From Alphaproteobacteria bacterium (GTDB lineage: Bacteria > Pseudomonadota > Alphaproteobacteria > UBA828): DNA of 47,958 bases. Below are positions 28,161-28,432 of this stretch, in pieces (the first letter of the stretch is position 1; each line of letters begins with the position of its first letter). The DNA lies in assembly GCA_011523425.1 (NCBI GenBank), contig WTGU01000142.1:1-47958 (forward strand), in the 5' to 3' direction. A program made the translations under genes and the position numbers. The notes under the pieces were generated by a model. It worked only from the letters and a program-made list of their open reading frames with translations. It did no database searches and was not told the DNA's origin.

Positions 28161-28222
28161 TTGACCGCGAGGTCAATGAGACGACATAGATTTAGTGCCC
28201 GCATGTTATAGCAAAAAACATG
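28161..28222. promoter_or_regulatory. Two inverted repeats in the AT-rich leader of the metzincin-TbpB lipoprotein gene
   Basis: TTGACC-GCGA-GGTCAA is a perfect dyad at 28161-28176. CATGTT...AACATG (28202-28207 and 28217-28222) is a second dyad directly overlapping the candidate -35. Neither is followed by a T-run in either direction, so they are better read as operators than as the mutS terminator. The stretch 28150-28256 is visibly more AT-rich than its surroundings. Confidence 0.45.
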
Positions 28223-28249
28223 ACCATAAGGCTAACAGGCCGGTATAAA
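28220..28249 (+). promoter_or_regulatory. Candidate promoter of the metzincin-TbpB lipoprotein gene
   Basis: ATGACC (28220-28225) and TATAAA (28244-28249) are 18 bases apart, 40 bases before the first ATG. The same layout is present upstream of the downstream FAD-subunit gene (CTGACC at 31703-31708, TAGGAT at 31727-31732, also 18 apart), and the bases GCCGGT precede or abut the -10 in both. Confidence 0.55.
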
Positions 28250-28288
28250 GTCTAGTGAGGGAGATCAACAACGGTTCCGCCAGGGGCC

Positions 28289-28432
28289 ATGAAATCACCA
28301 CCGTTCATCTGCGAGTGTCCGAGCGCTGTCGATGAGGCCGCTTCTCTGCCTGTGACACGCGGGGAGGACGTGCGCCCGCTTGCCGCCGGGCGGAGCCCGG
28401 CGCCGCCTCCCGGTATCCGCCTGGCGCGGCCC
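28289..28432 (+). pseudogene. Decayed copy of the 5' end of a molybdenum-hydroxylase FAD-subunit (coxM-like) gene
   Basis: The first 48 codons of this frame align without gaps to the first 48 codons of the gene at 31767. By hand count 25 of 48 residues and 93 of 144 bases are identical. Shared stretches include KxPPF, ECP, RPLA, and RLARP at the end of the match. The FAD motif AGGQSLVP has become AAGRSPAP, so no FAD-binding role survives. Similarity also covers the 29-base leader before the ATG and stops sharply after RLARP, where the lipoprotein signal peptide begins. It is fused in frame to that lipoprotein. Confidence 0.7.

Follow-up and report, generated by a model that had tools for sequence, protein, structure and literature searches.

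The question raised by this locus is how an open reading frame for a surface lipoprotein came to begin with what resembles the start of a coxM gene, upstream of an intact coxM. The window, i.e. the whole stretch of DNA that was analysed (47,958 nucleotides), is an entire contig (G000:C4) of a 3.6 Mb, 159-contig assembly, and the arrangement is known from this one draft assembly. In the window, mutS is followed by a 1122-residue open reading frame (28289-31657) and then by genes encoding a coxM-like FAD subunit, coxS and coxL (Table 1). The name coxM is used as a family label, as the protein matches Pfam FAD_binding_5 and CO_deh_flav_C, and its best NCBIfam model, glyceraldehyde dehydrogenase beta, scores below cut-off.

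Table 1. Features of the mutS-cox interval, with positions in the window
Feature	Position	Strand	Basis or remark
mutS, intact, left neighbour of the insert	25389-28124	+	Pfam MutS I-V; 84-87% identity to congeners
Extra non-coding ~95 nt, absent from the 60-63 nt junctions of congeners	28125-28219	+	Junction comparison
Terminator-like hairpin, then T-run, inside the extra ~95 nt	28137-28154	+	
Captured operon-start leader: ATGACC (28220-28225), TATA-like box TATAAAGT (28244-28251, at -45), 29-nt leader	28220-28288	+	
48 codons from the coxM 5' end: open, in frame with the lipoprotein, coxM motif lost	28289-28432	+	
Strong hairpin in the captured segment directly before GTG 28433; perfect 8-bp stem (28384-28391/28395-28402)	28384-28426	+	Region picked after the hairpin was noticed
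Surface-lipoprotein gene: signal peptide from GTG 28433, lipobox Cys codon (28499-28501), HEIGH zincin-like motif, TbpB_B_D barrel, Slam-lipoprotein-like C-terminus	28433-31657	+	
mutS remnant: last 20 nt, ending in TGA, second copy	31687-31706	+	Smith-Waterman against congener junctions
Native mutS-coxM junction; box TGTAGGAT (31725-31732; TATA in 7/7 congeners)	31707-31766	+	
coxM-like FAD subunit, intact	31767-32633	+	78-81% identity to congeners
coxS-like 2Fe-2S subunit	32634-33122	+	

The first 48 codons of the reading frame align without gaps to those of coxM (31767-31910). The 25 of 48 identical residues reported in the initial annotation stood, but its hand count of 93 identical bases in 144 became 95 on recounting. 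When positions 28200-28440 were aligned with 31680-31920, the comparison that the annotation had called for, the Smith-Waterman score was 65, against a mean of 19.8 (sd 2.6, maximum 32) in 1000 dinucleotide-preserving shuffles, and among 716 comparisons with other 241-nt stretches from either strand of the window, the highest score was 44. A tblastn search of eight genomes with 49 residues recovered the coxM of the same genome (E 2.2e-9) and the mutS-linked coxM genes of the seven congeners (E 2.1e-10 to 3.8e-7), with all paralogues ranking behind these (best paralogue, E 5.6e-6). The shuffles and the whole-genome search ruled out chance similarity and, together with a repeat that reaches beyond coding sequence, leave chance or convergent N-termini with a negligible probability. 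Another coxM paralogue was also rejected as the source, since BLOSUM scores of the captured segment were 106-128 against the eight mutS-linked coxM genes and at most 96 against the 15 paralogues compared.

Resemblance was also evident upstream of the ATG. The 29-nt leaders are identical at 17 positions (shuffle P 0.0007), and a TATA-like box is found at -45 relative to the ATG in the captured copy, at -42 in the native copy and at -45 or -42 in the seven congeners. At the other end, similarity stops at codon 48; codon 49 is the GTG at 28433, from which the signal peptide is conventional and is read as MFSCARIAPPLLGIAAMLGLAA followed by the lipobox C. The shared leader and promoter layout, and an end of the match that coincides with the start of the signal peptide, are as originally described. 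A sigma-70 consensus scan returned no site in either copy. The box of the intact cox operon, TGTAGGAT, has G as its second base where all seven congeners have A (TATARGAT), and the captured copy reads TATAAAGT; given these box states, activity may have shifted between the captured and native copies.

It had been suggested that an uninterrupted mutS-coxM junction in relatives would point to insertion, and such a junction was found in all seven congeners (G001-G007), with both genes on the same contig and 60-63 nt between stop and start. Among the eight genomes of the genus that were compared, only that of the window (G000) carries an insert between mutS and coxM. Trees of mutS and of cox place G000 as sister to G005 (support 100 and 97, respectively), and since the site is empty in G005, the simplest placement of the insert is on the branch of G000. 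If the arrangement were instead ancestral to G000 and G005, or older, the other genomes would have lost the insert by recombination between the flanking repeats, restoring a clean junction. The level of decay in the captured copy would fit such an age, but one or more independent clean losses would be needed with all seven congeners lacking the insert, and this history is considered quite improbable. In the stretches compared from two other genera of the family (four genomes), coxM has no adjoining mutS, and these are therefore uninformative on the junction. A scan of named genomes with coxM gave 49 loci, the best six of which (78-81% identity) matched six of the seven congeners, with no closer species, and a scan of the same kind with the lipoprotein gave no match. 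A 7.1 kb contig of G004 (L066, G004:C260) has mutS matches at both ends in opposite orientation and is probably an assembly artefact.

The proposal of a duplicated operon start was borne out by the sequences flanking the insert, although the duplication is larger than first seen, as the downstream copy adds 20 nt of the mutS 3' end. Smith-Waterman alignment of positions 31687-31766 with congener junctions that included the last 20 nt of mutS gave scores of 78 with G005, 64 with G003 and 39-60 with the other five, against shuffle maxima of 28-32 (with G005, mean 18.1 and maximum 30). The match starts at 31687 or 31688 in six congeners, and with G007 it reaches only to 31697. The insert is bounded on the right by a repeat of the mutS tail, the junction and the coxM start, and on the left by mutS, the junction and 48 coxM codons; the duplicated target is therefore ~230 nt. 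Usual target duplications are far shorter. The left junction measures 164 nt, of which ~95 nt is extra, and local alignment of 28125-28288 with congener junctions was not significant (scores 16-21; shuffle maxima 24-29), so the case for homology of the upstream non-coding junction depends on the box and the leader. When the extra 95 nt was searched against the DNA of 11 genomes (the same genome and 10 relatives) to trace its source, it matched only itself. Short palindromes, TTGACC-GGTCAA (28161-28176) and CATGTT-AACATG (28202-28222), lie within or beside this stretch and are possible operator-like sites. Between mutS and coxM, no integrase was recognised, and a selection of open reading frames by composition yielded no further one that looked coding.

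The upstream copy has evolved under relaxed constraint. Of 106 sites at which the eight intact coxM genes do not vary, it is altered at 26, with transitions accounting for 21 of these; for the intact coxM of the same genome, the count is 2 of the 108 sites that do not vary among the seven congeners. The AGGQSL-type FAD motif, conserved in CoxM and FAD_binding_5 subunits, has been lost from the captured segment (LAGGQSLVPLLNFRL to LAAGRSPAPPPGIRL). Relative to the majority sequence, dN was 0.32 and dS 0.68, which would fit largely relaxed change. The changes at frozen sites are nevertheless unevenly spread over codon positions (4/41, 17/44 and 5/21), position 1 being poorer in changes than free decay predicts (against position 2, Fisher P 0.002), and 22 of 39 conserved residues are left compared with 17.0 ± 2.2 in simulations (P 0.016). 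A test of the hairpin in this segment gave P 0.007, a weak result because the region was chosen when the hairpin had already been seen.

Silent divergence bears on the age and source of the captured copy. Its dS from the coxM of the same genome was 0.98, and the silent distance between G000 and G005 was 0.43. Because the captured copy exceeds half of that distance, the event would, if silent sites are neutral, fall early on the G000 branch or be older, or else the copy would have arrived already diverged. Trees of the captured copy within the genus (147 and 217 nt) did not single out a position as sister to the coxM of the same genome, as the AU test allowed all 11 placements. A foreign origin, in which a diverged mutS tail and coxM start came together with the lipoprotein from another lineage and homologous recombination at the junction left direct repeats, would account for an upstream copy more diverged than G000 is from its sister. 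It would also accord with two rare states that the captured copy shares with G005 alone, none being specific to its own coxM, and with the last 50 nt of the neighbouring mutS (28075-28124), which diverge more from the congener majority than do those of most other species. Changes at sites frozen in eight functional genes, however, indicate loss of function rather than orthologue divergence, and no donor locus was found in the genomes searched; this origin is doubtful, though it deserves to be weighed.

The inserted gene itself is related to genes found elsewhere. The TbpB-type barrel was recognised by Pfam TbpB_B_D (PF01298; 34 bits, cut-off 26), the NCBIfam Slam-lipoprotein model NF041636 scored 35.1 bits (E 1.5e-8), below its cut-off of 80, and the HEIGH motif gave a weak NCBIfam metalloprotease match; comparison with solved structures gave no match. 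The sole near-full-length homologue found (L063, G001:C30) aligns from residue 54 with 45% identity and lies on a 6.7 kb contig without a cox gene match, adjoining another open reading frame read as lipoprotein-like. The same N-terminal extension in a homologue away from cox genes had been named as evidence against capture, and this homologue has no coxM-like N-terminus. A search with its 57-residue N-terminus found nothing better than E 0.004 except itself, and parallel capture of a gene start by the homologue was rejected. With a homologue of the lipoprotein gene present elsewhere in a congener, the term "gene birth" in the initial annotation is too strong, only the 5' end being new, whereas insertion at a duplicated operon start stands. 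In the same genome, the protease-like part has a second relative (L074, G000:C127:26652-28118), with two in-frame TGA codons within the match. The genome has one PF04575 (Slam translocon) gene, which lies in the window within a reverse-strand region (14808-18264) together with a lipoprotein-looking open reading frame (16381-18264, no Pfam match), flanked by pho/pst genes on one side and a porin on the other. G006 has a porin homologue (39%) ~1 kb after phoU with no Slam match between, and the pair of Slam and lipoprotein-like genes may also be an insert.

Two start codons are candidates for the lipoprotein, ATG 28289, which would give a 70-residue pre-peptide, and GTG 28433, which would give 22 residues. 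Were GTG the start, the coxM-like stretch would be an untranslated relic left open by chance, a reading that is compatible with duplication and insertion and has a little less than an even chance. It agrees with the signal peptides of three of the four homologues examined, those with clear starts, in which 19-31 residues precede the Cys, with the near-neutral change in the captured stretch and with the 59% of neutral simulations that were likewise stop-free. Against it, the 144 nt contain no indel, residue retention is slightly above neutral and ATG has the stronger Shine-Dalgarno energy (-5.7, against -2.5 for GTG), although neither stands out from a background of -5.1 ± 3.1 and the energies do not separate the two starts. 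In lipoprotein processing, the pre-peptide, including the signal peptide, is removed before the lipobox Cys. Whichever start is used, processing is thus expected to strip off the residues of coxM origin along with the signal peptide, leaving a mature protein that begins at Cys71; a part that is cut off in this way would therefore be free to drift as long as frame and signals survive.

It is probable that a surface-lipoprotein gene already in existence entered a duplicated operon start, where codon 48 of coxM was joined to it in frame. Two copies of the operon start are present, and the site is empty in all seven congeners. The gene would have arrived at the mutS-coxM junction alongside a duplication of ~230 nt comprising the last 20 nt of mutS, the junction with its promoter-like box and coxM codons 1-48. 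One copy would then have come to precede the lipoprotein as an in-frame fusion, with the other remaining before intact coxM. The lipoprotein would owe its transcription to the captured promoter, and its translation would begin at the captured ATG or at GTG 28433. Takeover of the promoter is plausible because the box has been kept at the right distance. The repeat itself possibly arose by tandem duplication plus insertion, by one-crossover integration or by template switching in repair. A single replication error, in which the fork left coxM after codon 48, copied the lipoprotein gene elsewhere and resumed ~230 nt upstream in mutS, restoring coxM and supplying the new gene at once with promoter, leader and in-frame start, with the captured leader kept since as a working long pre-peptide and expression-tuning hairpin, is judged unlikely.

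The locus indicates that a surface-protein gene can acquire the expression signals of a metabolic operon while the operon itself is spared, and it calls for caution in that the predicted N-terminus of the lipoprotein is probably of foreign origin. A literature search found no report on this locus. Some genomic islands, SXT in prfC being an example, integrate into the 5' end of a gene and supply a replacement start. The present arrangement is similar in having a truncated 5' end on one side and a restored gene on the other, but here no integrase was recognised between mutS and coxM and the insert is a single gene.

Other parallels can be drawn. In the citT case of the Lenski experiment, an existing gene came under the promoter of another through a duplication (PMC4718724). 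Promoter capture by duplication is what we infer from sequence here; unlike at citT, a short duplicated operon start, old and decayed, flanks the inserted gene and is fused in frame. Fusion genes born by deletion join the start of one open reading frame in frame to another (PMC12803068), whereas here duplication and insertion are involved and the donor gene stays intact. The protein resembles Slam-dependent surface lipoproteins and type XI secretion system cargo (PMC5449769, PMC12282271) in its lipobox, TbpB-like barrel and Slam-lipoprotein-like C-terminus, with a Slam gene 12 kb away, but differs in its large zincin-like N-terminal part and its sub-threshold NF041636 score. Promoter capture by duplication and in-frame fusion are known in bacteria (PMC4718724, PMC12803068), and the present locus is an unusually legible new instance: a single natural case reveals the unoccupied site, the two copies of the repeat, the precise point of fusion and a homologue without the fusion.
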